This document shows positions 4,294 to 31,756 of a stretch of 64,000 nt of DNA, one piece after another (positions within the stretch are counted from its first letter, which is position 1; each line of letters begins with the position of its first letter). The DNA is taken from contig JAZBRS010000020.1 in the NCBI GenBank assembly GCA_037176725.1, positions 57,378,001-57,442,000 of the forward strand. The letters are read 5' to 3'. The notes under the pieces were generated by a model. That model saw only the letters and a list, made by a program, of their open reading frames with translations. It was not told where the DNA came from and searched no databases. The position numbers and the translations under genes were made by a program. The stretch is from Posidonia oceanica. Its lineage: Eukaryota > Streptophyta > Magnoliopsida > Alismatales > Posidoniaceae.

Positions 4294-4351
4294 GTTGGAT
4301 GCTAGAGTACCCAATGTCTTACATAAGACGCTGGGATTCTCAGCATTTAAC
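4294..4351. repeat. Two abutting 29-nt inverted-repeat modules
   Basis: The units are 4294-4322 and 4323-4351. Each has a GTTGGATGC- or ATAAGACGC-like left arm and a TGTCTTAC- or GCATTTAAC-like right arm around an 11-nt centre. They belong to the dispersed module family described in the findings. Confidence 0.75.
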
Positions 4352-4517
4352 AGAGAAACCCCAGATAATGAAGAACATGGATATTCATTTTGAAAAATGA
4401 TTTTAATGCCATATGAAAACTGGGGATGAGTAAATCATGCCAGAAAATCGATGCAATGGCAAACAAACCTCAAAAACATGATGCAAGCATTAAATCTAGA
4501 TTTAATAGGCACATGGT

Positions 4518-4575
4518 GTTAGACGCTGGAATACACAACGTCCAACATAAGAGGCTGGAATACTCAGTGTCCAAC
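4518..4575. repeat. Two abutting 29-nt inverted-repeat modules
   Basis: The units are 4518-4546 (GTTAGACGC...ACGTCCAAC) and 4547-4575 (ATAAGAGGC...GTGTCCAAC). They have the same arm grammar and length as the pair at 4294. Confidence 0.75.
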
Positions 4576-4729
4576 GTAGAGAACAAAAATATGGCGCATT
4601 CAAGGATCATAAATCATGGAAATCAAAGAGCAACTGAAGAGGAATCAAAACTTGACATGCGTTCTGAAACCAAGCAATAATCCAAGAGAAAATGATTTTA
4701 AATGCCATTTGGAAATAATGAACTGGGAC

Positions 4730-4786
4730 GTAAGACGCTACAGATCTGGCGTCTTACATAAGATGCTGCAGTATCCTGTGTCTTAC
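4730..4786. repeat. Abutting 28-nt and 29-nt inverted-repeat modules
   Basis: Unit 4730-4757 has perfect 9-nt inverted arms, GTAAGACGC and GCGTCTTAC, around 10 nt. Unit 4758-4786 is a degenerate neighbour (ATAAGATGC...GTGTCTTAC). Confidence 0.8.
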
Positions 4787-4958
4787 ACCCAGGAAGGCTA
4801 TTTTGGTAAAAAAGGGCGATGAATCCCAAAAAAGTATTAGCACATGATCTAAACAGGATGCTCAGGAGTTCACGAGAATGCATGCATCATATTAATCCTC
4901 AAAGAAAACATCCAAACCACATTTGCAAGGAAGCATGCTTAAAAAGACAAACAGAGAC

Positions 4959-5015
4959 ATAAGACGTTTTGAAAGGGTGCATCTTACATAAGCCGCACTA
5001 GTTTCAACATCTTAC
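4959..5015. repeat. Two degenerate inverted-repeat modules
   Basis: The units are 4959-4987 (ATAAGACGT...GCATCTTAC, 29 nt) and 4988-5015 (ATAAGCCGC...ACATCTTAC, 28 nt). They are clearly related to the other modules but the arms have more mismatches. Confidence 0.65.
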
Positions 5016-5855
5016 AGATCGAGAAATCTCAGAGCATGATCAAGCATCCAAAATGATTCAAAATGGAAAACTAACTATCTAGTAAGCATGAGCATGCAAA
5101 AACGAACATAAACATGCAATCAGTGTATGAAATGGGTGTGTGGATTGTTCCACCCACCTCCCACCTCTTGCCGCCAGAGTTCATGGCATCTCTGGCCATC
5201 AGAGAGACCAGAGACCCATGAAGCTTGGCTGTGGAGCTTCATGAGGATGAGGGAGGAGTGAGGGACGCTATGAGGAGGAGAGAATTACCTGTGGTGCGAG
5301 CCGGAGGTGTGCCTCAGAGTTGACCGGAGTTGGTGGACGGCGAGCTCGGACGGCACTGGTGCAGGTGCGGCGAGCTTGGGAATGGAGGCTTGGCTGCCGG
5401 AGGACACTTAGGGGGCTCTCTCTCACATGAAGGGAGGTTAAGGATCGCTCCAGAGTGCTGGGAATGCTCTGGTTCTCTGAATTGGGTTGCACCACCGGTT
5501 TGGGTTGGGTTCTCCTCCTCCTTTTCGTTCGATCAGGCTTGCACAAGGTGGAGTCAGTGGCAGCGCATGGTCTGGAGGTCGTGGCAGGAGGTGGCGTGCA
5601 TAGGAGATGGCACAGGGTGGCAGGGTGTGCTCTGGCAAGGAAGGGCGTGGTCTGGCAGGAGGTGGCGTGCACGAGAGATGGAGGTCGTGGGCGGCAGTTT
5701 GTGCTGGAGAGAGTTTGTGCAGGCGGCTCCAAGGAGAGGTGCTGGCTCATGGGGCGAGCCAGGTGATGAGGCTATCCATGGGGTGCGGCGGAGCTGGCAG
5801 TGGACGACTCTGGGTGTGCCGGAGCTCAGGCCAAAGGCACTATCACGACCGGCGT

Positions 5856-5971
5856 GTTGGACGCTCAACTAAGCTGCATCCTACGTAAGATGTTGGCTGA
5901 CATAGCGTCCAACGTAGGACGTTGTCATGCCTAGCGTCTTACGTAAGACACTGGCCCGGGCAGCGTCCAAC
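5856..5971. repeat. Array of four exact-length 29-nt inverted-repeat modules
   Basis: The units are 5856-5884, 5885-5913, 5914-5942 and 5943-5971 with no spacer. Left arms are GTTGGACGC, GTAAGATGT, GTAGGACGT and GTAAGACAC. Right arms are GCATCCTAC, GCGTCCAAC, GCGTCTTAC and GCGTCCAAC. Centres differ completely in sequence but not in length. The array lies in the U3-like half of the minus-strand LTR. Confidence 0.85.
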
Positions 5972-6168
5972 GGCCCAGAGAGGTTTTTAGGGTATTTCTT
6001 GGGATTTTCTTAGGAGTTGGCTTAGGTTAAGGCTGAAGTAAGGCTTAGGTAAGGTTTAGGTGGGGTGGGGTTAGGGTTTGGGTTGGAGGTTGGGTCCGCC
6101 ATGCCACGATCCGATCAAGCTTCCAGAGAAATCCACCAACGACCAGTTGTCAAAACGGGGTGTCTACA

Positions 6169-6185
6169 GATGCCCCTCCCTAAGC
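6169..6185 (-). promoter_or_regulatory. Polypurine tract of minus-strand body 1
   Basis: On the minus strand AGGGAGGGGCATC immediately precedes the LTR terminus TGTAGACACC. The same arrangement is found at 50699 and, on the plus strand, at 31220-31234. This position marks plus-strand DNA priming in LTR elements and identifies 3455-6168 as a 3' LTR. Confidence 0.75.
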
Positions 6186-8839: not shown

Positions 8840-8844
8840 TCGGA
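8840..8844. other. Left target-site duplication of the 23.8-kb element
   Basis: TCGGA lies directly left of the LTR terminus TGTAGATACC and is repeated at 32645-32649. The related uninterrupted site in body 2 reads CTCTCGGGTTGATTTTTC near 56610-56627. Confidence 0.85.
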
Positions 8845-9053
8845 TGTAGATACCCCATTTGGGCACTCCCTTCATGTTAGGATAGTCTCTTGCATTAGGT
8901 CGCTTTTAGAGGCCCTCCACCCATTTTTGAATCTCACTTGAGCTAAATGTTCCTCTCAAGTCCAAAATGCTATACCTTTCTAAGCCCCAAATGTTGGTAA
9001 CCTGAGTGTTCTTCACGTCCTGACCAAATTTGGAAGTCAAACTGATTAAGGGT

Positions 9054-9137
9054 GTTGTCCGCTGGATTCTCAGCGTACAACGTTGGCCGCTGGTTATCCA
9101 GCGGCTAACATTGGCCGCTGGCTTTCCAGCGTCCAAC
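9054..9137. repeat. Three abutting 28-nt inverted-repeat modules in 5' LTR
   Basis: The units are 9054-9081, 9082-9109 and 9110-9137. The middle one is a near-perfect hairpin with a 12-bp stem (GTTGGCCGCTGG / CCAGCGGCTAAC, one mismatch) and loop TTAT. The third has an 11-bp stem with loop CTTT. All three recur at 31444-31527. Confidence 0.9.
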
Positions 9138-9310
9138 GTGGCAACCCAGTCAGCCCAAGCTTTCCTTATTTGGCCTAATCCAGAAATCATGTTTTTGCCT
9201 TCTTTGGAACCTGTTGACCGGTCAAAGCCATCAAAGTCGAGTTTAATCACACTTAAGGACTCCTTAATTGGAGAATCTTCTCTGATCCTGGCAGTTATGC
9301 CTCGGAGGTC

Positions 9311-9366
9311 GTTATACGCGAGTTCTCTCGCTTATAACGTTATACGCTGGTTTTCCAGAGTATAAC
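9311..9366. repeat. Two abutting 28-nt inverted-repeat modules in 5' LTR
   Basis: The units are 9311-9338 (GTTATACGC...CGCTTATAAC) and 9339-9366 (GTTATACGCTGG / CCAGAGTATAAC, loop TTTT). They lie 55-110 bp upstream of the TATA box and recur at 31701-31756. Confidence 0.9.
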
Positions 9367-9420
9367 ACTTCTAAAACAGGAAACTCTGCTGACTTGGCAT
9401 TTGTGTCCTTTTTTGTTCCT

Positions 9421-9444
9421 CCCTTGCTTCTATAAAAGCAAGGG
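9421..9444 (+). promoter_or_regulatory. LTR TATA box inside a perfect 9-bp inverted repeat
   Basis: CCCTTGCTT (9421-9429) and AAGCAAGGG (9436-9444) are exact reverse complements flanking CTATAA, so the TATAAAA core starts in the loop and extends into the right arm. The same arrangement is intact at 31811-31834. By analogy with plant LTRs, transcription should start about 30 bp downstream. That start site is inferred. Confidence 0.75.
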
Positions 9445-10255
9445 TACCCCTACTAAGTTCAAGGCCGGAATCTTGAGAGAGAAAAGAAGTGAAGAAATTT
9501 TTGGAACTCACATACTCTTGAGATTAAAAATCTTAGAGAAGTGAGGTCCTTAAGAATTGAAAGAGAGAAGAGAGTTTTTGAAAGAAGGAGAGTCTTAGAA
9601 AAAGCTTGAGGATCCTCTTGTTGTTGTTGGCTTCATGCCAACACGGTTTGCACCTTGTGCATAGACAGAGGAGACACTATTTCGTTCAGTTCTCATTTTT
9701 TATTTCTGATATTACATGTTTAATTCCGTAGTATAATCAAGCATTTTTATTTCAAGTTCATATACTCTTAGCTAGGCATACATCTTTTTTAGTTGCAACC
9801 GGGGGAATCAAACCCCTCGGGTACGTATCTCACTACGTTTTCTTTACTTTCATTTCTACTAACTCTAGATAGATTACTACACATATTTATCCATTTTTAT
9901 ATTGTCTTGTTTGTTTTGCTTTGCTAACGTTTGTCATACAAGAAGGAAGAAGGAAGAAAGAGCTTACCGAGCACGGGCACCCTTGGGCAATGTTGACGTT
10001 GTCCTAAGGTAGCTGAACCCGCAACCACACTACATCTCCCCAAAGGCGTCTCGAGGGCCGGCGAAAGCGAACTGAGAGTGGTGATCAAATCGATTCCATC
10101 ACACGTGGAGTGACGGAGTCGAATACAAAGAAGGGGAACCTCGAGAAAGAGAAGATAGAGCGAGCAAAAGAGGGAGCCAAAAAGAAGCCTTCTTCTTCCC
10201 CAAGCCTCCCATCCTTCATCTTCATCACCTCGCTCACAAAAACCCCATATCCACA

Positions 10256-10276
10256 GTCTAGCGATCACGGTGGGAC
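10256..10276 (+). promoter_or_regulatory. Probable primer-binding site, diverged
   Basis: Directly after the 5' LTR comes GTCTAGCGATCACGGTGGGA. It aligns loosely with the Tat-type site GTGGCGACTCCGCTGGGG seen intact at 61611-61628 (shared GCGA, C and GGTGGG positions). The position is right but the match is weak. Confidence 0.45.
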
Positions 10277-10546
10277 AGCTAAAAGTGCCCCCGTGCATGG
10301 TAAGTAACCCTTTCTTTCTTCTTCCTCCTTCATTATTGACATTTTTAGTTTAGTGTAATTTCTTATTTTCTCGTATGATTTAAAGAAGCGACGAAATTCC
10401 TCGTAGTGTTTTGAGGCGTCGTAACTTTCTTTTCGTTTGTTTTCTTCGTGTCAATAACTGAAATCACCTCCCCCTTCTCTCTAGATTCTCGAGCGTGGAG
10501 GTGATCTGTAAAAATTGTTGTTTTTCTGAAAAAATACTGTCAGTAC

Positions 10547-10602
10547 GTTATACGCGTGATCTGGCGCATCTAACATTGGACGCTGCAATATCCACGTCTA
10601 AC
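10547..10602. repeat. Two abutting 28-nt inverted-repeat modules
   Basis: The units are 10547-10574 (GTTATACGC...GCATCTAAC) and 10575-10602 (ATTGGACGC...ACGTCTAAC). Confidence 0.8.
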
Positions 10603-11272
10603 GACTATTGAACAGAAACCCTTCTGTTTTAAAATTTCTTTTAGTTTTCTTTGTTATAACTGGCCCGAAGAACTGAGGTGTGAGGTGATCAGCTCTGCCA
10701 TAGGGACGGGAACAAAAAAATCACACCTTTCTTATATGACTTGCATGGCCCTCATTGGGAACTAAATTGCTTGTGTCATTTCTTGGGTTATATAAGTAAC
10801 CATCTAGATCTCAAGCACCTCTGTTGCAGGGACTTAGAAAAGGTACTTGTATGTCATTATCTTTCGCTAGGGGCCCTCCTTCTTCCTTGGCCTCTTGTGA
10901 AGGATAATTAGAACCTCAAGCCTTGACTTGTATTCCTCCTCCCCTTTTGGTGGTTTGTTTATTTCTTTTGTGTATACATACGTGAGTGACCCGATCAATC
11001 TCGAGTACGCTGGGCTCTACCTCTACAGGATAGGGACCGAAGTGTATTCAGACTCCCCCAGCATCCTCAGGAGTTGACGTAGGGGGTAGTACCAATCATA
11101 CTCACCCATCTTGTGAGGAGTCTTAGAAAATCCAAAAAAAAAGCCATACGTAAGCTTTAAGGAACCCAAAGAGCTACAATAGGTTTAAAACACTAATCTC
11201 AAAGCGAAAACCAAAATTAAAATCTTAAATCGCTGTTTGAAAGTGTTGCTGTGCAGTTATCTAAAACAGGGC

Positions 11273-11328
11273 ATTGGCCGCTGAAATTCCTGCGTATAAT
11301 GTTGCACGTAGCAGATTAAGCGTCTAAC
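11273..11328. repeat. Two abutting 28-nt inverted-repeat modules
   Basis: The units are 11273-11300 (ATTGGCCGC...GCGTATAAT) and 11301-11328 (GTTGCACGT...GCGTCTAAC). Confidence 0.8.
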
Positions 11329-11694
11329 ACATTCTCTGTGTGGCTGTATATCTTTAGCTCATTTGTGTCATTTGTTTGGCAGGGGAAGACATTGAAAAAC
11401 TCAAAACAGTGACAGTATCAGTTAGGGGAAACTCTGTTTATTTTTACTCTTTTTTCTGTATTAAAATTCTTGTAATTTCCCTTTCTTCGCACTTGTAATC
11501 CTTTAAAAAAGGAAAAAAGGAAAAGAAAAAAAGGAAAAAAGAGAAAAAGCAGAAAAAGAGCAAAAAAAAAGAGGAAAAGGAAAATCATCAAAAAAAAAAA
11601 AAGCAAAAATCAAAAAAAAAAAGAGAGTGAAAGGCTGAGAAAAAAAAGAAAGAAAAGAAGACATGAAAAGAGTTGGAGGGATACAACTGGGGAC

Positions 11695-11751
11695 GTTGAA
11701 CGCCTGACATCTTGCATCCAACGTTATACGCCTTACACTGAGGCGTATTAC
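11695..11751. repeat. Abutting 28-nt and 29-nt inverted-repeat modules
   Basis: The units are 11695-11722 (GTTGAACGC...GCATCCAAC) and 11723-11751 (GTTATACGC...GCGTATTAC). They end 35 bp before the gag start codon. Confidence 0.8.
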
Positions 11752-11786
11752 ACCCTAAAGCCAATTCCATCTCACAAGCTACAGCA

Positions 11787-13928
11787 ATGATGAATCAAAT
11801 CCATGAAGCTGATCAGTCAGAAAGAGAGAGGTCAGACTCAGCAAGTACCTCGGGAGAGGAGCCTACAATCTACCACCCAATCACCGGAGAAGTCTTAGAT
11901 CCGGATTCAATCCAGTATAGAGCTATGTACCAGTTCTTAAACGAAGAGACATCAGCCCAAACGAGGCCATGTCTAAACAACCTCCAGCAGCCACCCCACC
12001 TCGGTGAAGGACAACGAAGGCCAGATGCGGACCATCCCCCTGAAGATCTATACCCGGGACTAGATGGCAACCCACCGTCGGACACAAACCACCCAGGACA
12101 GGGCACAGCGCTCAACAGAGCATATAACTCAAGGGCCAACCCCTTGATTCAGGAACATAACTACATGCCACATGGCGAATACAAGGAAGGAGTCTATCTA
12201 AGACATCCCCGACCACCCCCGGCAGGCAATCAGCCTCGGCCGGATCATCATTACCACCAGGCATCTCCCTCGCGATACGAGTAGGTCGCGCCTCAACATT
12301 TCTACAACAGCTACCTCCATCAGCAGCAGAACCATCTGTCCTTCAATTCACATGTCCCGACCCCATCAGCCGGGATAACAAATTTGGATGAGATGAGGAA
12401 AATGCTCAGTGCATTAGGGGTACATACCCAGGCTCCGGCAAACTTTGACATGAGCTAGTTCCCCCCATTTAGATTACCTCCAGGTTTCAAGTACCCAAAG
12501 ACTCCCAAGTTCAATGGAACCACCAACCCACTCAGTCACCTGGTGCGGTTCCAAATGGAGTCAGTCCCCTATTTCCATGATTTGGGGCTTGTGGTACACT
12601 TGTTCTTCTACTCACTCGAAGGAGAGCCAATGGATTGGTTTCTCACTCTCTCCAAGGAAGACCTCAGCAACTTTGATAAAATCAGAGAAAGCTTCCTTAC
12701 AAAGTACCAGCACAAGATAGATCCAAAGCCAACCTTCCACGACCTAAGCAAGGAGGTCATGAAGCAAGGCGAAAGCTGGGTTACATTCGCCAACAGATGG
12801 CGGGAAATGGCAGCCAGATCAGGACTGACCATTCCAGAGAGACAAGTGGTCCAGACCCTCATTGCAAACACAACTGGACCAATGAAGAAGGGGCTAGTGA
12901 ATGCCTATTGCCCTAATGTTACGGCTTTGTATGAAGTGGCGGCCTTCGTTAAAGAAAACTTGCATGAATTCATGGAGGAGCCAAAGAAAAGCCAGAAAGC
13001 GCAAGTGGTAGAGGGAGTGATCGGAGTTGTCAATAAGATGAGCCCCGCACCCAGGCCATTCCATCAAAAGGCTATACTGGCTTCACAGCAGCCAACATGG
13101 AGCCACCCTCCTCCTCAGCAGCAAGCTTGGAGCCACCCTCCTCCTCAGCAACAGCCAACATGGAGCCACCCTCCTCCTCAGCAACAGCAAGCCTGGAGCC
13201 GCCCTCCTCAGCAGCAGCAGGCATGGAATAATCCTCCTCCTCAGCAGCAGATCCGCCCAATGTGGAATGCTCCCCGGTCGCAATGGACCAGGGGTAATCA
13301 AAATAGCCAAGCCAACAACCGAAATCCCCCCAACAACATTGGGAATGGGAGCGGTTATCATAATGTTCCCCCTCTAGTACCACGCAAAAAGGGAAAAAGA
13401 GACCATTACCCTCCTCTACCAGTCACACTGGCCGACATGTTCATAGAACTAGAAGAAGCAAAAGCGCTCGAATTCTCGCCAGTTAGGCCTGAATTGCCAA
13501 ATTGTGACCGGAACAAATACTGCCCGTTCCATGGAATGCATGGTCACAACATTAATGACTGCTGGACCTTCAGGGACATAGTCTATGACATGGTGGAGGC
13601 AGATGTGTTTGAATGGGATGTCCTGGTCAAAAGAGCCAAACAAAGAAAGCAGACAGGGACATCTCAACAGGTCTACAGCGACCCTCTCCCCAAGCATCAA
13701 GTCATGGCATTCTAGGACGAGCAATTTCCTAATCCATCAGAGGACTGGGACAACCATGTTGAACTAAAAGAGGACTGGGATAATCAAGCTAAACAATGGG
13801 GAACAATCTCAGATGATGACTGGGACAGTGAGGCAGATGAAGGACTAACAGTGAAGGAGCTCCTTAGCCAGTTCAACCTCACCGCAGTAGTGGAGGAGCC
13901 ACAAGAAGAAATGGAAGAAGAAAGCTAA
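11787..13928 (+). pseudogene. gag: Tat-lineage gag, interrupted by stops
   Basis: Structural (capsid/nucleocapsid) part of the 23.8-kb element polyprotein. The frame opens with ATGATGAATCAA at 11787 and stays in frame 0, but is interrupted by TAG at 12282, 12456 and 13713 and by TAA at 13926. The capsid-like core lies at about 12480-12990 (PKFNGTTNP, then WFLTLSKEDL and FLTKYQHK blocks, as in the retrotransposon gag family). A Pro/Gln/Ser/Trp repeat follows at 13083-13260 (SHPPPQQQ units). A CHHC knuckle lies at 13519-13563 (CPFHGMHGHNINDC, spacing CX2HX4HX4C), which is the Tat type. An acidic tail runs to 13928. Protease follows without a gap. There is no upstream Ogre-type ORF1. Confidence 0.88.
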
Positions 13929-14777
13929 GTTCAAAAAGCCAATCCGCAATTTGAACGGGAAAACATAGTCTTCAAGGATTCAGAGCTTCCACCCCCACAT
14001 AAGCAAGAGTTGCCACTAGTCATCACAGTGGGAATTAATGATAATGTGCTGCAAGGAGTATTGGTTGACACTGGAGCAAGCCGAAGCCTCAGTTCCCTCT
14101 CCACACTCCGGAGCTTGGGACTAAATGAGGGCGAGCTGGATAGGACTCCCTTTATGTGCACGAGGTTTGATCAGAAAGAAAAGTTGGCACTAGGGATAAT
14201 ACCCATGGAAATCACAGTCGGTCCTTTGACCAGTATCACTTCGCTGATCATTATGAAGGAGGAAGTCCTGGAGCCACTCATCCTAGGGAGGTCTTGGCTA
14301 GCAGAGGTCTGGGCTGTAGCATCTTCAGTTCACAAAATACTAAAATTCAAATACCAAGGAGCGGTTGTTAGCATTCCAGCCAATAGACCAGGGATTCTAT
14401 GCACATTCAAGATGCCAGAGCTACAAATTGCAACCCTTCGGGAAGAGGAGGAGTCACAACGTCTGCCATGGAGAAAATCACCGCTATGGGAGCCCAAGTT
14501 GCTGTCCCCACCAGTCTCCCCGATATTCAGAGCTGCAAGGCCACCATCAAGTCAGTTGCCGGCCCTCAGTACTTCAGTACTCCGAAGCACTACTACTCCA
14601 TCATCCCCAATCTTCCGAGTACCAACAAAGCAGCGAGCTAGGACCACAAAGCCACTAGAGCTTGGCGGATCTATATGGAAGGAGTCCATCTTCGCCTAGC
14701 CACTCAAGAAGGGAGCATCTAAAGGAAATGAGGCTGCTGCGCCCATCACCAGGGGAGGGAGGCTGTCAAATCGAATC
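13929..14777 (+). pseudogene. First aspartic protease domain of pol, plus decayed linker
   Basis: Retropepsin-like domain in frame 0. The motif LVDTGAS has its catalytic Asp codon at 14067, followed by a hydrophobic core and an LILGRSWL motif (about 14280-14300), the partner of the C-terminal retropepsin block. About 300 bp of linker follow, in which coding-like sequence switches frame (a +2-frame segment at about 14400-14640), then TAG at 14697. It resembles the domain at 15060-15450 closely enough to be a tandem duplicate. The DTGA active-site motif is intact here. Function as an active second protease is not implied. Confidence 0.75.
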
Positions 14778-17963: not shown

Positions 17964-17966
17964 TAG

Positions 17967-20634: not shown

Positions 20635-20733
20635 ATTAAACGAGCAAATACCAGCGTCCAACGTTAGACGCGCCATCTAAAGCATTTAACGATCAACAGA
20701 GGGATGTTGGACGCCTGATATTCTGCATCTTAC
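20635..20733. repeat. Three inverted-repeat modules (28 nt each)
   Basis: The units are 20635-20662 (degenerate left arm, right arm GCGTCCAAC), 20663-20690 (GTTAGACGC...GCATTTAAC) and, after 15 bp, 20706-20733 (GTTGGACGC...GCATCTTAC). Confidence 0.7.
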
Positions 20734-20924
20734 GTTTTAACTGTGACTTAACTACAGATTTTGGACAGAGGGTCCTTGATCAAATACCAAAGCCACTAGG
20801 GAGTATTTCTAAACTCAGAACAGTCCAAAACACATGAACAAGGAGGAAAAATGAAATATATATATATATATTAACTCCCTTGAAAAGATACATGGTCCCT
20901 GAAATTAAAAATTATAATGACTGC

Positions 20925-22264
20925 CTATCTAACCATCTTCCTCCTTTTTCTGCGCAGCACGCCTGTCGCTTCAACCCACTCCTCGGGTTTGGGCAGTAGC
21001 TTTGAATATCACTTCCAATGCGCATCCTCCCGTGGTAGGCAGCAAGGAGCAGTTGATGGCCCCTCTGAGTCATCATGGCGGTCCAGAGACGACCAGAGAG
21101 CCCGAATGTAGTACACCATTACTGCATCAGATGGAAAACTGCGCTTCCGAACCCGAATACAAGGAATAAAGCTCAGCCGAGGTGGCACCCCTTTCTTCTG
21201 CCCCACCATCTCGAAGCAACGATGGAAGTCGTAAACTACAAAGTGGGTGGGCCCTATCAGCTCTAGCTCAACTGAAGAACCTCGTGCTTGTTGCTTATGA
21301 GAAAGGGACGTGGAAGGCGCGGAAATGTCAATAGGGGCAGTAGACAAAGAGCAAACTCTTTCCTCAATCAAATCTGTCTTCACGAGCCCAAGCCTCAGGA
21401 AATGGACCTGCAGCCACTTGGAAAGAAGGAAAGGAGAGCCTACAAAATCCCCTCCGGTGGAAATGCTGGTTAGGCCAAGATATGTGGCAGCAAGAATGGC
21501 CACTGAAGGAAAGCGCCAGAAATGCTCAGTAAGGCCTATCAAGAACTCAATATGATAGACATCCAAGGAGAAATCCTTGGTGACTAATAAAGTAAGGCCC
21601 CCAATCAGTAAATGCAGACACACCAACAGTTGATCTTGAGAGGTAGATTCCTCAATCCACCGGAAACGAAGTACAAATGCACCAAGTTGAGTCTGTGACC
21701 TATGATTACTGGGAAGGTAGGCGGAAGGGTGAAGATACGGTCTATATATGTTTGCATATCCGCTGTTCCATACGGCAATGGGAAGTCAATATCTGGCCAG
21801 GCCGCTCCAATCTGAGTTATACTAAGCAGGCCGTGAACATCCTCTACTAGGATTGTCGCCTCACAACCCCCAAAGAAGAAAGTATGAGTCTTAGGACTCC
21901 AGAAGGCACATGAGGCGTGAAGCAGGGGCCAATCCAAGTTTGTGCCCAACAAATCCAGAAGTCCATCAAAGCACGTACGAGCCAAAACAGATTTCCTCTC
22001 TTGAGCCCAGAGCACAAAATCCTTCACCCAAGTGGAGTAGTAGGGGAAATCATTGTCAAAGCAAGGTGTCTTGGTAAAATTGAAGATTTCCTGCAAAGAA
22101 ATTCAGAGGCATGAGGAACAAAAGGAGTGTAAGGGGACCAATGAAGAGGATCATACCTTCCCCGTCTTGATAAGGGACATCATATGCCCTTCAATCTCTT
22201 CCAAAGGTTTTACGACCCCCTTCTTGTTATGCATGAAGGCATTGGGGATTGAGCTAGAAGCCAT
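20925..22264 (-). pseudogene. Antisense plant-mobile-domain gene A
   Basis: Exon 1 is 22264-22157, starting ATGGCTTCTAGC (MASSSIPNAF, 36 codons). An intron with GT-AG ends (GTATGA...TTTGCAG) spans 22156-22091. Exon 2 starts at 22090 and carries PMD blocks: FPYYSTWVKDF, LLHASCAFWSPKTHTF, TILVEDVHGLLSI. These match the W..W, fWs..tnTF and tlDva.ltgL pattern of the PMD (aminotransferase-like) family, whose cellular members include Arabidopsis MAIN/MAIL1. The frame changes near 21670; the continuation (DQLLVCLHLLIGG...) runs to TGA at about 21009. In-frame sequence then continues to TAG at 20925, ending in a basic RRKRRK stretch. The segment ELIGPTHFVVYDFHRCF has a counterpart in fragment C (26144-26757). 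The gene is decayed and I infer no activity. Confidence 0.75.
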
Positions 22265-23091
22265 GAAAGCAAGAGAGAAGGAAGGAAGAAGCAAAAATTA
22301 GGAAGAAATCAGTGGAAAGGAAAAGAGCAAGTATGCATGAAAATCAAAGGGGTGGCCAAGCTTTTATAAGCATAGGAGGATCGTCGGAAATCTTTCACGC
22401 GGACATTGAGAAAATTTCGCAAGCATTCCGAAAGATTAGCCAAGAACAGGAAAGGAAAGAAAAGTTTCTGGGCTCGCTTCATTGTATGCGAGACGGTGCT
22501 CGTCCAACGTTAGCCGCTCTATTTGAGGCGTATAACGTTTAGAGGAGCTACCAGCATTGGACGTAGAAGTTGAAGCAGATAACGTTGGCCATAGCAGATG
22601 AGGCGTATAACGTTTTATCAGTGACTTAAGTCACTGAACTTGGCTGGACTGCCCTCTAATCTGTGATTGAGTTGCATGCGCCTGTTTTACCCATTCTAGA
22701 GGTTTAACTAAGTTGAAATACACGTGCGAGCGTTGGTTTCATATTTTTTGGACATCCAGGCCAGTCGGAATCTCTAGTTGCTTGTTTCATCAAGTAAATG
22801 ACTCGTTAAGGCGACGACGACTTCAAAATTCAATTCTTAAGCTTCCAGGTGAAATCTTTCCTTATAACTATGTCATTTACATACTATTTCACTTGAATAT
22901 GCTGGTTTCAAGTTAATTTGAATTAAGGACCATTATTTTATCATATTGGTCACTTAAGCTCACTTTAGCTTTGAGAAAGGTAATTTAAAAGAAGTATTTG
23001 ACAAGTTTACTTAGTGTACAAAAATATATATCATTTCAAAATATACAATTGTTCTACAAAGTCACCAAAGCATACCCCTGAAGTATGAAAG
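22265..23091. other. Spacer between antisense genes A and B
   Basis: It holds inverted-repeat modules (22481-22611) and otherwise AT-rich DNA with no recognised coding domain. It would contain the promoter of gene A near 22265-22480 and the 3' end region of gene B. I see no convincing TATA box. Confidence 0.45.
22481..22611. repeat. Four 28-nt inverted-repeat modules in two pairs
   Basis: The units are 22481-22508, 22509-22536 (GTTAGCCGC...GCGTATAAC), a 19-bp gap, 22556-22583 and 22584-22611 (GTTGGCCAT...GCGTATAAC). They lie 217-347 bp upstream of the gene A start codon. Confidence 0.8.
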
Positions 23092-25763
23092 CTAGGGAGC
23101 ACTCTCTCCCTCACCCTCAGGAGCCGGAGTAGGAGCTGTAGCAGGAGCCGGAGAGGGGGCAGTAGGGGACGAGGCGACTGTCGAACTGAAACGCCTGATG
23201 GGGCCCTGGAGACGGATCGAGAGTGGTGGCTACCCGACCGGCGACTTGGTACACAAGGAACAGGCACCCCGAGCCTAACACCGACCGTAAAGGCAAACCT
23301 CTGGTAGTGCCCCAGCTCGAACTCAAGCTGGGAGATAATCCCCGCCATGCTCTAAGGAGGGAAACAATCCAAATGTCAGATACAAGCAAGGACATAGAGG
23401 ACATAAAGAAGCATCGAATCAAATCATACCGCCTGAGACTGGGCAATCTCAGTGTCCCTATCAGCCACCTGCTGCTCCAGCTCCTGGATCCAAGCACTCC
23501 TAGTGGCGACTGTCCCCTCTAGCTCCTCTAACCTCCTGACAGAGCTGGCGGCTATGAAGTCACCAGCCCGCTCCCTCAGCTCACCCTCTAGATAAGCGAC
23601 TTGCAAGCAATGGCGTCAGGACCAAGGGGATTTCAAAAGCAGAAACAAAATAAAAGCATATTTACCTTCTCCTGGAGATGGGAGATCTCCTCTGAGCGGT
23701 CCGGAGGTGGAGCGCTGCTAGTCGAAGGCTGAAAAGGAGGATTCAAGTCAGTTGCAATTCATAGCTAGACTACAAAAGCTACTTGTGAAAAAATACCTGA
23801 GAGGCAGAGGCCCATAGACGGTCAATCTCCCTGGTCAGAGCGGAGAGCTGCTGGGTCAAATGGCGCTCCTACTGAGCCCGCTCATCGACCACCTTGAGCT
23901 GCAAAAGAAAGAAAGCCAGTTAGCCAAATTGAATTAACAATATATAAAATGAAATTCAAAAGCTCACCGCTATCTCTAGCTGGGCGCGAGAAGACTGAAC
24001 CTCCTCCAACAGGGCTGCATGGGAAACCACTGCCTCCCCAGGATCTGTGTCCCCCAAAGGAAGGTTCCTGCGTCCAAGGAAGTGGGACCGGTGGAAGATC
24101 ATCAGAGAGGAAAACTCCCGGTCTATCCACGCAGTCCTGTCCACCTCGTCCTCCTCTGTAGCATCCGTCGGAGCAGGGGAACCACGACGGGCCCAGTCCA
24201 TGAGCTGTGGGCCGTAGACGTCCACCCAATGGCGAGCACGGCTGCCCCCGCCGCGTGTCTCTCGCCAAACTCGATGAGGAGGAGGTGAAGGCCGAGCCTG
24301 CCAGTGCCCTAGCTGTCGTACCACCCTGCTAATCTGCTGGAAGTGGCAGTGGTTCTAGCAATGGATCCATACGTCCCGATCGAAAATGCCCCGATCACGA
24401 GCAATCTCAGGGACGTCCGCATGCTCTCCCTCAGGACGCCAAACCACCTGAAAAGAGCAATACATGTCAGCAAGTAGCATAAACAAATAAACAGAAGCTA
24501 AAATTAAAATAAGCAAGTTACCTAAGCCGGGACAAGGAGCTCAAAAAGTAAACGACCGACATAGTGGTTGTCATCGGCAGGCTCGAGGGCCTGCTCAGCA
24601 GCAGCCCAAAATAGTCCCCGGGGAAAGGGGACACCGGTAGGAGGAATCGGAGGAGGGGCAGGGCGCAGAAAGGCAAAGTGGTCCCACGCCCACATCTGCA
24701 CGCAAAACAAGAAAGCTGTTAGTAAGAATATAATATTCAATACAAGCTTAAATATGCAAATTTACCTGAAGGAAAGGCAGGTTCCCGCCCAGCTGGTGAG
24801 AACTGCCGTCAGTGAAGCTGAATAGGGTGGAGTACAGGTGCGCCAAGCTCGCCGCACCCCAGGCGTACTCTCCCACACGCTCCAGGTCCACCAAAGGGGA
24901 AGGAACCACGCCGAGAGCTTCGAGGAGGAGTGCGAGAAGAGCACCTCCCCGAACAGCACCAAGAGGAAGGCCCGCAGCTGCTGGTCAACCTCCACACCTG
25001 GTCCGTCAACTGTCTCTGCCAACTCACTCACCCGGCGAACCGCGGAAGTGATCACCACGAGCTGCTCCCCGCTCATGGCTAACTGGCATCCAACGAGCTC
25101 CTGCACCAAAACCGAGTAGCTCGGGCGCACCCTCCCTGTCACTGGTCTGCCCGTAACCTGGAGACCAGTCAACCGCGCCATGTCCTCAAGAGAGAGGACA
25201 AACTCGCTCGCCCGAGTATTGATCGAGCTCGTCCGATAGCTCCACCACTCTGCAACCACCTCTAGAAACATCAAACGGAGGGGAAAGTCCGGGATGGACA
25301 AGAAATGTCCAAATCCCATCCGATCCAGACGCTCCTGCTGGAAAGAAGCCAACAAAGCGTAGGACCGGTGGACCTGACCCCAGTAGCAGCGGGTCACAGC
25401 CGATGCTCGACTCTACAAGCAAGCAGGAAAACTATCAGCCAGGATGAAATAATTGAACAAAATAAGGAGAAAAGAATGAAAAATGTATACCTGCCCTTGG
25501 AAGCCAGTGTGGCAGTGGCGTACTCTGATCGAGACGCGTCCCTACGCGGTCCCGACGCCTGCACCTCGTCTCTGGGGATCTGCTCCCGCTAGTAGTCTGG
25601 GGGACCCCTCGCGACGCCCTCCGCTTCCCACCGCCCTCACCGCTGTCTCCTGCGCAGCAGCAGCCCCAGCGGATGCTTCCGCCACCGCCTCGCCGAAGGG
25701 GGAGGGTCCGATCCTTGCCCCTTTCATCGCCCTCGTGTAAAACTAGGAGATACGCCTCTCCAT
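23092..25763 (-). pseudogene. Antisense eight-exon PMD plus coiled-coil gene B
   Basis: Exons (minus strand) are 25763-25491, 25412-24766, 24695-24522, 24447-23968, 23898-23797, 23728-23666, 23600-23430 and 23351-23092. The seven introns of 65-80 nt begin GT, and all but one end AG. All junctions are phase 0. Exons 2-4 give a PMD: FGHFLSIPDFPLR, ASEFVLSLEDMARLTGLQV, TGRPVTG, RAFLLVLFGEVLF, then in another frame EYAWGAASLAHLYSTLF, MWAWDHFAFLRP and RVVRQLGHWQ. Exons 4-8 give a charged coiled coil (LTREIDRL, EISHLQEK, VAYLEGELRERAGD, IQELEQQVADRD) and a Pro/Ala-rich tail. Decay includes TAG at 25745, 25544, 24524, 24357 and 23871, a frameshift in exon 2 near 24880, and the exon 7 acceptor reading AA. 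Ancestral length is about 700 residues, as in cellular PMD proteins. Confidence 0.8.
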
Positions 25764-25877
25764 GCTCGCCGGAGTGAAGGAGAAGCTCGCCGGAAGGAGT
25801 GCTATCGCCGGAGAAGAAGGGAGGAAGAAACCAAATGGCCACCCGTGGCGTAGGACGAGGGTTTTATACCTTTTAAC

Positions 25878-26024
25878 ATTGTACGCGTGAATCCCAGCGT
25901 CTAACGCCTCGGGAAGAAATGATGTTATACGCGCCCTATTACGCGTTCAACGTTTTGCGAGTTAAAACGTTAGCCGCTGGCTCTCCAGCGTATAACGTTG
26001 GACGCTCCATGTTGGGCGTACAAC
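25878..26024. repeat. Four 28-nt inverted-repeat modules upstream of gene B
   Basis: The units are 25878-25905, 25924-25951, 25969-25996 (GTTAGCCGCTGG...CCAGCGTATAAC) and 25997-26024 (GTTGGACGC...GCGTACAAC). A 17-nt palindrome-like GTTTTGCGAGTTAAAAC sits between the second and third. They lie 115-260 bp upstream of the gene B start. Confidence 0.85.
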
Positions 26025-26143
26025 GCTTTAAGTTCAGGGAAGTGTTCTGAATTCTGATATTCTCATTCAACTCATACAGATTCATTCAAAAAAGACCAAA
26101 GAGACGAGATAAATTTTATTGATGATAAGTGATACATTTCTAA

Positions 26144-26757
26144 CTACATCTTCTGTCTTTTTGAAGGAAATTCAATGAACAATTTAGGACGCACGCCCTC
26201 GTACCAAGCGTCATAAGTTGCAAGAGAAATGGCTTCACGGTCCGCACTTGAGTTCTCCCATTCAGAAAGGACTTGGTTTCGCCCCTTCCCGTCCCAAGTA
26301 CCAGCCTGATAGAAGACCTGGATGATGTCCCCAGGAGTGTCCCTCAAGCGTGGGAGAACCATATCAGAGAAGCACGGCAAGGGAGGTATAACCTGAGGAG
26401 TACCCAGCATTGAGAAGCAGCGCTGAGGGTTGTACCTCACAAACTCGGTTGCCCCAATCAGCGTCAAGAAATACTCCGAGTCAGATACTGTCCTGAAAGA
26501 CGAGGGAGAACTGAAGGAATCCATCTGGGATTTGACCTCGCAGGCGCATAGGCGGCGAAATACGAGAATGGGAGTATGCGGAAATGATGAAAACAGAGAG
26601 TACCTTCTCATGCACCAACAGGTTCGCCAAATGGTTGGGTATGGCCTCCAGCCGGAGTTGCACCATGTCAGAAGGAGAGGAGAAGACGGCCACCTGGAAA
26701 GCATGACGTGGGATATCACTCAAATCCATGAGGAAAAGCACAAGCCCTAGTAAGCAA
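26144..26757 (-). pseudogene. Antisense gene fragment C, paralogue of the gene A C-terminus
   Basis: The likely 5' exon (about 26757-26600) reads DLSDIPRHAFQVAVFSS...HLANLLVHEK. A GT-AG intron of about 75 nt is plausible (GTACTC...CCCAG), then an exon with MDSFSSPSSFRTVSDSEYF, LIGATEFVRYNPQRCFSMLG and PPLPCFSDMVLP, ending KRQKM before TAG at 26144. LIGATEFVRYNPQRCF aligns with LIGPTHFVVYDFHRCF of gene A, and PP.L.F follows in both. I see no complete PMD core, so this is either a truncated paralogue or a remnant of a larger gene. No intact start is visible. Confidence 0.6.
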
Positions 26758-26925
26758 AAATCAATAAGGGAAGGGAGATGAATGTTTGAACTACAAGATT
26801 CAAGCCAAGAGGAGATCTAATATAGGCCATGGAGCTTTCATCAAAATGGAAAGCCAAAGAAAATTGGGAATTTACTGCCAAAACGGCGGTGCCCAAACAG
26901 GAAAGACAGCAGCCTGTCTCGCGAC

Positions 26926-27009
26926 GTTATACACGGCCGTAATGCTGTCCAACATTAGCCGCGATGCTTCAAGCGTCCAACGTTGAACGCTAACAATCAA
27001 GCGTCCAAC
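26926..27009. repeat. Three abutting 28-nt inverted-repeat modules
   Basis: The units are 26926-26953 (GTTATACAC...CTGTCCAAC), 26954-26981 (ATTAGCCGC...GCGTCCAAC) and 26982-27009 (GTTGAACGC...GCGTCCAAC). They lie immediately before the 44-bp tandem array. Confidence 0.85.
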
Positions 27010-27069
27010 GAGTCAAAGCAGAATTGAGAGCAGAAAAGAAGAACCTCGGAGCACACCAGGTCAACAAAG

Positions 27070-28600
27070 CAAGCTAAGCCAAGAAGTATCCTTTTCGACT
27101 CCCTTGGGTCTTCCCCTAGGCACGTCATGCTATTATTTCCGACTCCCTCGGGTCTTCCACTAGGCACGTCAAGTTTTTACTTTCGACTCCCATGGGTTTT
27201 CCCCAAGGCACGTCAAGTTTTTATTTTCGACTCCCTTGGGTCTTCCCCTAGGCACATCATGCTTTTATTTTCGACTCCCTTGGGTCTTCCCCTAGGCACA
27301 TCAAGTTTTTACTTTCGACTCCCTTGGGTCTTTCCCTAGGCACGTCAAGTTTTTATTTTCGACTCCCTCGGGTCTTCCCATAGGCACGTCAAGTTTTTAT
27401 TTTCGACTCCCTTGGGTCTTCCCCTAGGCATGTCATGTTTTTATTTTCGACTCCCTCGGGTCTTCCCCTAGGCATATCAAGTTTTTATTTTCGACTCCCT
27501 TGGGTCTTCCCCTAGGCACGTCAAGTTTTGTATTTTCGACTCCCTTGGGTCTTCCCCTAGGCACGTCAAGTTTTTATTTTCGACTCCCTCGGGTCTTCTC
27601 CTAGGCACGTCAAGTTTTTATTTCCGACTCCCTCGAGTCTTCCCCTAGGCACGTCAAGTTTTTATTTCCGACTCCCTCGAGTCTTCCCCTAGGCATGTCA
27701 TGTTTTTATTTTCGATTCCCTCGGGTCTTCCCCTAGGCACGTCAAGTTTTTATTTTCGACTCCCTTGGGTCTTCCCCTAGGCACGTCAAGCTTTGTATTT
27801 TCGACTCCCTTGGGTCTTCCCCTAGGCACGTCAAGTTTTTATTTTCGACTCCCTTGTGTCTTCCCTTAGGCATGTCAAGTTTTTATTTTCGACTCCCTCG
27901 GGTCTTCCCCTAGGCATGTCATGTTTTTATTTTCGACTCCCTCGGGTCTTCCCCTAGGCACGTTATGCTATTATTTTTGACTCCCTCGGGTCTTCCCCTA
28001 GGCACGTCAAGTTTTTCTTTTCGACTCCCTCGGGTCTTCCCCTAGGCACGTCAAGTTTTTATTTTCGACTCCCTTGGGTATTCCCCTAGGCACGTTAAGT
28101 TTTTATTTTCGACTCCCTCGGGTCTTCCCCTAGGCACGTCATGTCTTTATTTTCGACTCCCTCAGGTCTTCCCCTAGGCACATCATGCTTTTATTTTCGA
28201 CTCCCTCAGGTCTTCCCCTAGGCACATCATGCTTTTATTTTCGACTCCCTCGGGTCTTCCCCTAGGCACGTCATGCTGTTATTTTCGACTCCCTCAGGTC
28301 TTCCCCTAGGCATGTCATGTTTTCATTTTCGACTCCCTCGGGTCTTCCCCTAGGCACGTCAAGTTTTTATTTTCGACTCCCTCGGGTCTTCCCCTAGGCA
28401 CGTCAAGTTTTTATTTTCGACTCCCTCAGGTCTTCCCCTAGGCACGTCATGTTTTTATTTTCGACTCCCTCGGGTCTTCCCCTAAGCACGTCATGTTTTT
28501 ATTTTCGACTCCCTTGGGTCTTCCCCTAGACATGTCATGTTATTGTTTCGACTCCCTTGGGTCTTCCCTAGGCATGTCAGGTTTTTTATTTCCACCTCCC
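27070..28600. repeat. 44-bp tandem repeat array, about 34 copies
   Basis: Each unit contains TTTTCGACTCCC, then GGGTCTTCCCCTAGGCACGTC. The period is exactly 44 bp where measured (27361 to 27405). Copies differ mainly by C/T and G/A changes. The array is in the 3' region of the 23.8-kb element, the hypervariable zone known to seed satellites in Tat/Ogre elements. Confidence 0.92.
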
Positions 28601-30245
28601 TTGGGTAATCCCCTCGGCAAATCAAAGAAAGATCCCCGGAGCATAACCGAGACACCAAAGCAAAGATACCTGGAGCACAACTGGGATAACAAAGCAAACC
28701 AATCAAAGAAAGATCCCCGGAGCATAACCGGGACACCAAAGCAAAGATCCGCGGAGCACAACTGGGATAACAAAGCAAACCTACCAAGGAAAGATCCCCA
28801 GAGCACAACTGGGATAACAAAGCAAACCAATCAAAGAAAGATCCCCGGAGCATAACCGGGACACCAAAGCAAAGATCCCCGAAGCACGACAGGGATAACA
28901 AAGCAAACCTACCAAGGAAAGATCCCCAGAGCATAACCAGGACACCAAAGCAAAGATCCCCGGAGCATAACCGGGATAACAAAGCAAACCAATCAAAAGC
29001 AGATACCCCGGAGCACAACCGGACAAACAAAGCAAGCCCCGGAGCACAACCGGACAACTAAAGCAAGCCTTGAAGCACAACCGGACAAACAAAGCAAGCC
29101 TCGGAGCACAACCGGACAAATAAAGCAAACCTTGGAGCACAATCGGACAAACAAAACAAGCCCCAGAGCACAATCGGACAAATAAAGCAAACCCCGGAGC
29201 ACAACCGGACAAACAAAGCAAGTCCCGGAGCATAACCGAACAAACAAAGCAAGCCCCGGAGCACAACCGGACAAATAAAGCAAACCCCGGAGCACAACCA
29301 GACAAATAAAGCAAGCCCCGGAGCACAACCAGACAAACAAAGCAAGTCCCACAGCACAATCGGACAAATAAAGCAAGCCCCGAAGCACAACCGGACAAAT
29401 AAAGCAAACCCTGGAGCACAACCGGATAAATAAAGCAAGCCCCGCAGCACAATCGGACAAACAAAGCAAGCCTCGGAGCACAACCGAGAAAATAAAGCAA
29501 AGCCCCGGAGCACAATCGGACAAATAAAGCAAACCCTAGAGCATGACCGGACAAACAAAGCAAACCCCGGAGCATAACCGGGACACCAAAGCAAAGATCC
29601 CCGGAGCACAACCAGGATAACAAAGCAAACCAATCAAGGAAAGATCCCCGGAGCCTAACCGGGACACCAAAGCAAAGATCCCTGGAGCACAACCGGGATA
29701 ACAAAGCAAACCAATCAAAGAAAGATCTCTGGAGCATAACCGGGACACCAAAGCAAAGATCCCCGGAGCACAACCGAGATAACAAAGCAAACCAATAAAG
29801 GAAAGATCCCCGGAGCACAACCGGGATAACAAAGCAAACCAATCAAAGAAAGATCCCCGGAGCATAACCGGGACACTAAAGCAAAGATCCCCAGAGCACA
29901 ACCAGGATAACAAAGCAAACCTACCAAGGAAAGAACCCCGGAGCACAACCGGGACACCAAAGCAAAGATCCCCGGAGCATAACCAGGATAACAAAGCAAA
30001 AGCAAGTACCCCGGAGCACAACCGGACAAACAAAGCAAGCCTTGGAGCACAACCGGACAAATAAAGCAAGCCCCGGAGCACAACCGGACAAATAAAGCAA
30101 GCCCCGGAGCACAACCGGACAAACAAAGCAAGCCCCGGAGCACAACCGGACAAACAAAGCAAGCCCTGGAGCACAACCGGACAAACAAAGCAAACCAATC
30201 AGTAGAAAGAACCCCGAAGCATGACCGGGTCAATAAAGCAAAGCC
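28600..30245. repeat. Tandem array of 31-34-bp units with higher-order structure
   Basis: Two related monomers alternate: GAGCACAACCGGACAAACAA with AGCAAGCCCCG (31 bp), and AGATCCCCGGAGCATAACC with GGGACACCAAAGC (about 33-34 bp). In the flanks the second type forms composite units of about 90 bp with CCAATCAAAGAAAG spacers. The centre (29030-29560) and the stretch 30010-30190 are pure 31-bp type. Open frames of up to 353 codons on the minus strand (Leu/Cys/Gly/Ser-rich) are products of the repeat and not genes. Confidence 0.9.
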
Positions 30246-30615
30246 AACGGTATTAGTGAACCCCCTGTTCACTAACTCCTGGGTCAGAAGATGATGGTCC
30301 CCACCAAGAATGTAGGCAACATTCAATGAAAGGACACTTGATTCTGACGAATAACGCCAACGGTATCGATGGACTCATCGTTCATTGATTCTGGGTCACG
30401 AGATGACGGTCTCTGTCGAGAATGTAGGCAACATTCAATGAAAGGACACCTAATTGTGACGAATAGATCCAACGCGGTCAGCAGAGAAGAGATCATTTCC
30501 CCTTTTGCCTGGGAGCATCATGGGCCTCTCGCTCACCAACCCGCGTATCATGAGATGACGGTCCCCTGGGAGAGTGTAGGCTACACTCGAGGAAAGGACA
30601 CCTGATCATGACAAA
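30245..30615. repeat. Three tandem copies of a unit of about 115 bp
   Basis: Each copy carries GGGTCA.GAGATGACGGTC, GAATGTAGGCAACATTCAA and GAAAGGACACCTGAT. Copies start near 30250, 30355 and 30470. This block lies between the 31-bp array and the 39-bp array. Confidence 0.7.
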
Positions 30616-30834
30616 TTTCATTCACGCATGTGTCAGTTCGCCTTGGGTGGTGAGAAAAATTCCTGAGCCAACCCGGTATACAAATTAAAGCCGACGATGA
30701 TGGAGGAACCTCATTACCTAGGGTCATGCATTGCATATCATGACCCCTTTTGCATTCCCGTCAGCACGCATCCATGCATAGCGCATTGTACTGCATTAGC
30801 ATTGTACTGCATTCGCATTGAGTGGTCGTCGGAA

Positions 30835-31060
30835 TCATTAGCTATCCATCCTTTTAGTTTGACCCCTGCGGGCCATCCCGATAGCATGTCTTTTAGTTTG
30901 ATCCCTGCGGACCATCCCCGTAGCATGTCTTTTAGTTTGACCCCTGCGGGCCATCCCCGTAGCATATCTTTTAGTTTGACCCCCGCGGGCCATCCCCGCG
31001 GCAGTGTCCTTTAGCTTGCCCCCCACGAGTCTTCCCCGTGGCATGTCGTTAGTTTGTTCC
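30835..31060. repeat. 39-bp tandem repeat, about five copies
   Basis: The unit contains TTTTAGTTTGACCCCTGCGG and GCCATCCCCGTAGCATGTC. Copies at 30850-31045 are diverging at the right end. It is the last repeat block before the polypurine tract. Confidence 0.85.
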
Positions 31061-31219
31061 CCTTGGGCAATTTCCTTGGCCGTGTTTCTTTAACCGACCC
31101 TCTTTGTGTCCCGTCCAGGGCTGGTGGTAGTAGGCATTGGATTTCATTTAGGACCCCCAGGTAGCGCCACATGGGGGTATCGTCTCGCCTTGTAGATAAC
31201 TTCGTGGTGAAGCCATCTT

Positions 31220-31234
31220 CAAGGAGGGGCAATC
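31220..31234 (+). promoter_or_regulatory. Polypurine tract of the 23.8-kb element
   Basis: AAGGAGGGGCAATC abuts the 3' LTR terminus TGTAGATACC. It matches the minus-strand tracts AGGGAGGGGCATC at 6169 and 50699. Confidence 0.85.
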
Positions 31235-31443
31235 TGTAGATACCCCGTTTTGGCACTCCCTTCATGTTAGGATAGTCTCTTGCATTAGGTCGCTTTTAGA
31301 GGCGCTCCACCCATTTCTGAATCTCACTTGGGCTAAATGTTCCTCTCAAGTGCAAAATGCTATACCTTTCTAAGCCCCAAATGTTGGTAACCTGTGTGTT
31401 CTTCACGTCTTGACCAAATTTGGAAGTCAAACTGATTAAGGGT

Positions 31444-31527
31444 GTTGTCCGTTGGATTCTCAGCGTACAACGTTGGCCGCTGGTTATCCAGCGGCTAACA
31501 TTGGCCACTGGCTTTCCAGCGTCCAAC
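31444..31527. repeat. Three abutting 28-nt modules in 3' LTR
   Basis: Units 31444-31471, 31472-31499 and 31500-31527 correspond to 9054-9137, with arm differences such as GTTGTCCGT for GTTGTCCGC. Confidence 0.9.
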
Positions 31528-31700
31528 ATGGCAACCCAGTCAGCCCAAGCTTTCCTTATTTGGCCTAATCCATAAATCATGTTTTTGCCTTCTTTGGAAC
31601 CTGTTGACCGGTCAAAGCCATCAAAGCCGAGTTTAATCGCACTTAAGGACTCCTTAATTGGAGAATCTTCTCTAATCCTGGCAGTTATGCCTTGGAGGTC

Positions 31701-31756
31701 GTTATACGCAAGTTCTCTCACTTATAACGTTATACGCTGGTTTTGCAGCGTATAAC
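31701..31756. repeat. Two abutting 28-nt modules in 3' LTR
   Basis: Units 31701-31728 and 31729-31756 correspond to 9311-9366. The second has a fully matched right arm GCGTATAAC here, where the 5' LTR reads GAGTATAAC. Confidence 0.9.

Follow-up and report, generated by a model that had tools for sequence, protein, structure and literature searches.

Within a 64,000-nucleotide (nt) window of the Posidonia oceanica genome (assembly GCA_037176725.1, contig JAZBRS010000020.1, positions 57,378,001 to 57,442,000 of the forward strand), a 23.8-kb Ogre-like Ty3/gypsy retrotransposon (8845..32644, plus strand) carries clusters of a 28-nt dyad, GTTRNMCGC-N10-GCGKNYAAC, which consists of two inverted 9-bp half-sites. 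That these units are DNA binding sites kept by selection, and that they are placed in the element's control regions, is likely; on balance we lean towards the fuller statement that they are predicted sites for a dimer, with the plant mobile domain (PMD) proteins which the element itself encodes as the binder. The protein-site interpretation is drawn from a combination of properties: the arms are constrained, the centre is free, the gap is locked, the inner triplets are nearly independent of each other, and the clusters stand upstream of TATA boxes on both strands.

The number of units is far above that in shuffled sequence. In the window, GTTNNNCGC-N10-GCGNNNAAC is found nine times exactly, 19 times at one mismatch or fewer and 30 times at two or fewer, whereas dinucleotide shuffles of the window (n = 10) gave no gap-10 match at one mismatch or fewer and 0-4 at two or fewer. 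The element without its 3' long terminal repeat (LTR), taken as 8845-26954, holds 6, 14 and 20 units at zero, at most one and at most two mismatches, respectively; the corresponding means over 200 shuffles of this interval are 0, 0.01 and 0.275, and the maxima 0, 1 and 2. At up to two mismatches the neighbouring gaps are almost empty (gap 9, none; gap 11, one), and a de novo gapped-dyad search of the same interval ranked GTT...CGC at gap 10 first. Outside the element, the 10-12 highest-ranking dyads per region were simple AT repeats on the right and a few CCTAGG-type words on the left, a view from the top ranks that leaves room for rarer dyads elsewhere in the window. An initial annotation of this DNA had described about 40 units of fixed length, often abutting through AACGTT or AACATT joints, and had named similar counts in shuffled sequence and a broad distribution of lengths as outcomes that would speak against it. 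Neither outcome appeared; the joints are present between adjoining units, and the figure of about 40 is fair once weaker 29-nt units are counted.

The composition of the half-site was examined in 388 half-sites from units with at most one mismatch. Position 4 holds a purine, C is almost absent from position 5, and position 6 holds A or C, hence the description GTT-R-N-M-CGC; in addition, TGG is favoured immediately inside the arm. This pool combines loci found via the motif with loci found otherwise and excludes L019 and L051, which repeat the window and the related locus L049, respectively; L001, which overlaps L009, was excluded from the pooled motif sets.

The strict unit length extends to the whole host plant genome (2.96 Gb). 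The exact GTTA-type dyad GTTANNCGC-N10-GCGNNNAAC gave 25,501 forward matches against 0 in a reversed control, compared with 194 against 21 for gaps 0-9 summed and 15,640 against 350 for gaps 11-37 summed. In 67 of 73 places taken from the latter group the gap was exactly 11, which points to a second locked class. Back-to-back joints (GCGTNNAACGTTNNNCGC) numbered 74,082 against 3 in the control, and joint half-sites separated by 1-30 bp numbered 21,149 against 1,273. As the patterns are near-palindromic, many places are counted on both strands, and these totals are best taken as tens of thousands of sites.

At up to one mismatch, 20 units lie in non-coding sequence (both LTRs counted) and none in the coding pieces, which account for 10,459 of 24,156 bases; at up to two mismatches the numbers are 27 and 1, the latter a chance-like match at 24681. 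The gag-pol region (gag, protease, RNase H and integrase pieces; 12459..19187, plus strand) is devoid of units at up to one mismatch, as the initial annotation had stated. In the U3 part of the 5' LTR (8845..10255, plus strand), a cluster of three abutting 28-nt units (9054..9137) is followed by a second of two (9311..9366), which ends 64 bp upstream of the TATA box TATAAAA (9431..9437, plus strand), recognized by its sequence and retained across aligned LTRs of one family. The 3' LTR (31235..32644, plus strand), 96.2% identical to the 5' LTR, has units at 31444-31527 and 31701-31756. Pairs of abutting units are located in the leader at 10547..10602, within an intron-like stretch inferred by eye, and at 11273..11328, and a 28-nt unit plus a 29-nt unit (11695..11751) lie directly ahead of the first open reading frame (ORF). 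Between pol and the 3' LTR the minus strand encodes three antisense genes, A (21012..22264), B (23117..25763, exon limits approximate) and C (26144..26729). Three units (20635..20733) occupy the interval from pol to gene A, four (22481..22611) lie upstream of the gene A TATA box (22362-22368), four (25878..26024) immediately upstream of the gene B TATA box (25862-25868), and three abutting units (26926..27009) upstream of gene C.

A similar arrangement is found in copies that were fetched without using the motif. Among the best 30 of 150 scored genomic matches to gene B, including the window's own copy (L019), 25 have at least two 28-nt units within 1.5 kb upstream; in one of these, L044, the units resemble those of the gene C promoter. 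Five of six gene A loci (from 150 listed) have four units and the sixth has three, at identical offsets. When LTRs were selected by their TATA/R region (20 of 38 listed besides the window's own two), all 20 contained at least two units, with 85 gap-10 units in total. An alignment of U3 sequences was drawn mostly from motif-found loci and is therefore biased; it was used for layout only.

Sequence change within the units is distributed unevenly. For 22 alignable gene B promoters (eight of the 30 loci were excluded: L030, L040, L041, L044, L046 and L048, which have no alignable gene B promoter, and L036 and L042, in which it is partly replaced), transversions per site amount to 0.009 in the arms, 0.033 in the triplets, 0.155 in the centres, 0.026 in adjacent spacers and flank and 0.058 in the 5' leader, all being point figures without confidence intervals (CIs). 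Arm transversions are 17-fold rarer than centre transversions. If all changes in the gene B promoters are considered, the arm/centre ratio is 0.45 (95% CI 0.37-0.57) and the arm/leader ratio 0.49 (0.41-0.61). Arm differences stay flat over rising copy distance (0.113, 0.130, 0.115 and 0.104 for 104, 84, 41 and 2 pairs), while centre differences rise over the same pairs (0.206, 0.284, 0.359 and 0.438), and in the third gene B unit the centre has been replaced outright with the arms retained. These patterns bear on the possibility of neutral copying without function, by minisatellite-like slippage or as a small foldback element. Clusters do gain or lose entire 28-bp units between copies, an indication that slippage or unequal exchange is active; however, arms and centre do not change alike, length is not free but locked genome-wide, units at up to one mismatch are absent from coding pieces, and the same places are occupied in variously diverged copies. 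We consider neutral copying highly improbable. The tiny foldback element that the initial annotation had offered as one of three roles, together with the minisatellite, was set aside on the grounds of fixed homologous places in one family's elements with no independent insertions, gain and loss of whole units, and the arm/centre contrast.

A second proposed role was that of RNA hairpins, and here the relation between the two inner triplets of a unit is informative. The initial annotation had seen these triplets vary together, an impression that did not withstand counting: equal (complementary) triplets occur in 2 of 22 units of the window element against 2.4 by shuffling and, with G-U counted, pairing extends to 41 of 63 triplet positions where 39.7 would be expected. 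Two further pairing sets gave 118 of 204 against 109.9 expected (p 0.09) and 72 of 132 against 76.3. Among 81 listed genome places, the triplets are equal in 19, the one mild excess (12.6 expected, p 0.013) that favours covariation; without U3-type centres and repeats, 8 of 50 distinct sequences are equal against 5.3 expected. Both arms share one triplet vocabulary, which may give the impression of covariation by eye. Hairpins in transcripts, serving in packaging, in translation control or as a source of small RNA, would suit the inverted-repeat arms, the U3 units, which fold well, and the mild excess of equal triplets; they would not explain why compensatory pairing at variable positions is not clearly above shuffles, why several leader and promoter units fold weakly, or why clusters precede the TATA boxes of the antisense genes. 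The hairpin reading was set aside on the first two counts and retains, in our estimate, a very slight probability. Of the three roles, protein-binding half-sites stand.

In the preferred interpretation, each unit would be a double-stranded DNA site for a dimeric sequence-specific protein, with half-sites GTTRNMCGC separated by exactly 10 bp (by 11 bp, for the most part, in a sister family), and stacking back to back through the AACGTT joint may allow cooperative protein assembly. The clusters would constitute control regions, located upstream of the TATA box in the LTR, from which gag-pol is driven, upstream of the antisense genes and at further non-coding places. A PMD protein encoded by the element would bind these sites and activate or de-silence the LTR and the regulatory genes, giving a self-reinforcing and family-specific loop of an autoregulatory or anti-silencing kind. 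What we observe is the motif, its locked gap, its placement in non-coding sequence, the constrained arms and the link between gap length and PMD lineage; from these we infer binding by a protein, its dimeric state, its identity as a PMD protein and an effect of activation or anti-silencing as opposed to repression. A trans-acting circuit of this type in a retrotransposon, with antisense PMD genes encoding DNA-binding dimers that read a family-specific dyad code in the LTR and in their own promoters, is advanced tentatively, its prospects being a little short of even.

The candidates for the binder are the PMD products of the antisense genes. Gene B matches the PMD profile above its cut-off (Pfam, E 4.4e-11) and gene A under the cut-off (E 2.6e-5), whereas gene C gave no Pfam match at E <= 1. 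A Pfam scan of eight ORF pieces, six of them from the antisense genes, at E <= 1 returned PMD in two, CLN3 at E 0.23, and neither DUF1985/DUF287 nor Transposase_28/TRP28 (PF04195). The C-terminal part of gene A is homologous to gene C, which in the window copy is a shortened paralogue of gene A.

Gap length offers a way to relate the units to the PMD genes. The LTR of a related element (3457..6168, minus strand; LTR start TGTAGACACCCC at 6168) contains mostly 29-nt units; a relaxed scan found six, with gap 11 in five and gap 10 in one, so that the length of 29 nt which the initial annotation had assigned to this LTR applies to all but one of them. Single 29-nt units lie at 4323..4351 and 4518..4546, a 28-nt unit with complementary triplets at 4730..4757, and four abutting 29-nt units, with 2-3 mismatches each and three of the four also in the relaxed scan, at 5856..5971. 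In L049, a minus-strand element, four of the five LTR units have gap 11, and its PMD-like gene, which shares 61% identity with gene B across 173 amino acids, is preceded by three gap-11 units. The eight loci fetched with this gene (its own copy included) have 14 gap-11 and 2 gap-10 units upstream, six of the eight having any, compared with 5 gap-11 and 92 gap-10 units upstream of the 30 window-type gene B loci (Fisher p 4.6e-12, with units treated as independent though they are not). Gap length follows the PMD lineage as a tendency rather than a rule, because L012 and L050 are mixed copies with both 28- and 29-nt units. The 29-nt LTR of the window agrees with this tendency, apart from its single 28-nt unit.

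This tendency is relevant to another candidate for the binder. In other plant LTR elements, U3 enhancer repeats exploit host factors, and the sites could likewise bind a transcription factor of the host, or two paralogous ones, which the element exploits, with PMD not the binder. Position upstream of TATA boxes and constraint on the arms suit any activator, and the assignment to PMD proteins is itself a prediction. However, two gap classes tied to PMD lineage in one nucleus would need two host factors; a single one would not be expected to impose both gaps, whereas a pair of element proteins, each specific to its family, would. Moreover, exact sites in the tens of thousands would titrate any host factor that bound them. 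We regard a host binder as rather unlikely. To our knowledge no plant factor has such a dyad, no motif library having been searched.

Several findings weigh against binding sites read by the element's PMD proteins. When all changes are counted, the ratio of arms to adjacent spacers and flank is 1.11 (CI 0.82-1.61), so that the arms are no less variable than their immediate neighbourhood. In 20 closely related LTRs, arm differences (0.121) exceed those of the surroundings (0.056), and the arm transversion rate of 0.0136 is not under the 0.0094 of the surroundings; we read the excess as decay after insertion, as expected where recent copies merely decay. Most simply, active elements would pass the arms on intact along their lineage, and the differences seen between arms would be post-insertion decay, mostly by transitions, as CpG-rich arms would lead one to expect. 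One of the remaining gene B loci has 29-nt units only and four have no unit upstream; the upstream sequence shown for these five fails to align with the other loci. Two of the eight sister loci likewise have no unit upstream, the mixed copies depart from the association of gap with lineage, and that association can arise by descent, because promoter and gene travel together. The leader units lie downstream of the LTR TATA box. Finally, the AlphaFold model of a gene B piece is poor (mean predicted local distance difference test score 57.7, predicted template modelling score 0.30) and showed no known DNA-binding fold, no fold search having been made.

Among described systems, the VANDAL/VANC anti-silencing system of Arabidopsis (PMC5735166, PMC10398659) is the nearest working analogue. 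VANC proteins are described as binding short motifs in the non-coding sequence of the VANDAL family to which each belongs, and as removing silencing (PMC5735166). Both systems have short motifs enriched in non-coding parts of the element (here all 20 units at up to one mismatch) that change as repeats are gained and lost and that vary from family to family; the VANDAL motifs are targets of an element-encoded protein, as is proposed here. However, VANDAL is a Mutator-like DNA transposon, whereas the window element has LTRs, a target duplication and gag, protease, RNase H and integrase pieces. VANC carries DUF1985/DUF287 and the window proteins carry PMD, and because the protein domains differ we do not file the element as a VANC system. 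VANC21 motifs occur in one orientation and at high density, in contrast to dyads with a locked gap, and binding and hypomethylation have been demonstrated for VANC, whereas the present sites are predicted. The outer seven half-site bases, GTWRNMC (GTT, or GTA in the 29-nt family), are present in the VANC21 C-type and VANC6 motifs, a match expected in 1.2% or 0.8% of random 9- or 8-mers; the VANC21 T-type motif does not fit, a further point on the other side of the balance. As the match was noticed after the fact and the stretch compared was self-chosen, we take it as a lead, not a test.

Other parallels concern the protein domain and the architecture of the element. In the passages concerned, genes bearing a promoter motif are reported to need host PMD proteins for expression (PMC7156037, PMC9899485), so that for MAIN/MAIL1, too, PMD proteins are linked to a short promoter motif of dependent genes; the DOWN motif at MORC1, however, is CATGCAGTTT and not the window dyad, and direct binding is unproven there according to the same passages. 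Silencing of transposable elements (TEs) involves host PMD proteins (PMC7156037, PMC8616336), which accords with a different use of the sites, namely recruitment of a silencing or chromatin-structuring complex, made up of host PMD proteins or repressors, either by an element that limits itself or by a host that has captured the motif. Retention of the arms in the element lineage favours a use beneficial to the element, and we consider such recruitment improbable; a review raises the opposite prospect, that TE-encoded PMDs may counter silencing (PMC8616336). Retand elements resemble the window element in having antisense genes between pol and the 3' LTR with tandem arrays nearby, and their antisense TRP28 protein is predicted to bind DNA and to regulate transposition; they differ in that TRP28 (PF04195) was not found in the window pieces, and the relevant passages describe no target sites for Retand (PMC11963269). 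Ogre elements, likewise giant members of Ty3/gypsy, are reported to carry PMD genes in 57% of cases, and regulatory dyads are unmentioned in the cited part of that work (PMC6317226).

Papers matching six exact 12-letter motif strings did not, by their titles and abstract openings, concern such an element. No description of such sites was found in the literature as judged by titles, abstract openings and cited passages, bioRxiv preprints not being covered. A recent preprint reportedly has a title on PMD proteins and DNA-motif modules.

For the PMD genes of Ogre elements, the dyad provides a concrete candidate target sequence. If the proposal is true, PMD proteins would gain both a target and a function, and family-specific anti-silencing or activation similar to that of VANC would have arisen in retrotransposons, with tens of thousands of target copies in one genome. 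If PMD proteins bind the dyad, retrotransposon regulators with matching DNA operators may be a general mechanism, and the domesticated MAIN/MAIL1 proteins would gain a likely ancestral activity. The gap length that differs between families would serve as a built-in test of specificity. Even with a host binder, tens of thousands of exact motif copies would represent a large regulatory load.

The element itself is delimited by the match between its LTRs and is flanked by a 5-bp target duplication, TCGGA (8840-8844 and 32645-32649). Its plus-strand ORF pieces match gag, aspartic protease, RNase H and integrase, some under the curated Pfam cut-offs. The Ogre-like assignment is based on size, the Ty3/gypsy pieces and the presence of a PMD gene between pol and the 3' LTR. 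The intron-like stretch in the leader extends from GTAAGT at 10300 to CAG at 11382 and contains two unit clusters. Tandem arrays with periods of 44, 31 and 81/47/34 bp occupy 26955-30240, between the antisense genes and the 3' LTR, with few units inside; they resemble the hypervariable arrays described for Tat elements. In copies L007 and L013 the gene C locus retains further A-like stretches missing from the window copy, so that gene C looks like a full paralogue of gene A. Homologues of gene B comprise 21 proteins, every one on a short contig (<= 2,532 bases). PMD-like antisense genes are apparently very numerous, with 45,315, 41,801 and 15,312 loose candidates for three PMD queries, 150 of each having been scored.

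Some further observations concern sequences related to the 29-nt LTR and other unit families. Two stretches of the window, 34611-35281 and 61660-62329, match one end of the 29-nt LTR at approximately 76% identity, and both fall in a segment duplicated at a distance of 27 kb. Of the 67 gap-11 places listed, 17 belong to a separate 29-nt class, GTTAGTCGCC...GGCGCCTAAC, which could represent either a third lineage or some unrelated repeat. In another LTR family, represented by what by eye is a solo LTR (L017:3900-4770), GAA/TTC triplets are found in the best units, which gives the impression of a triplet vocabulary that has changed inside a single family.

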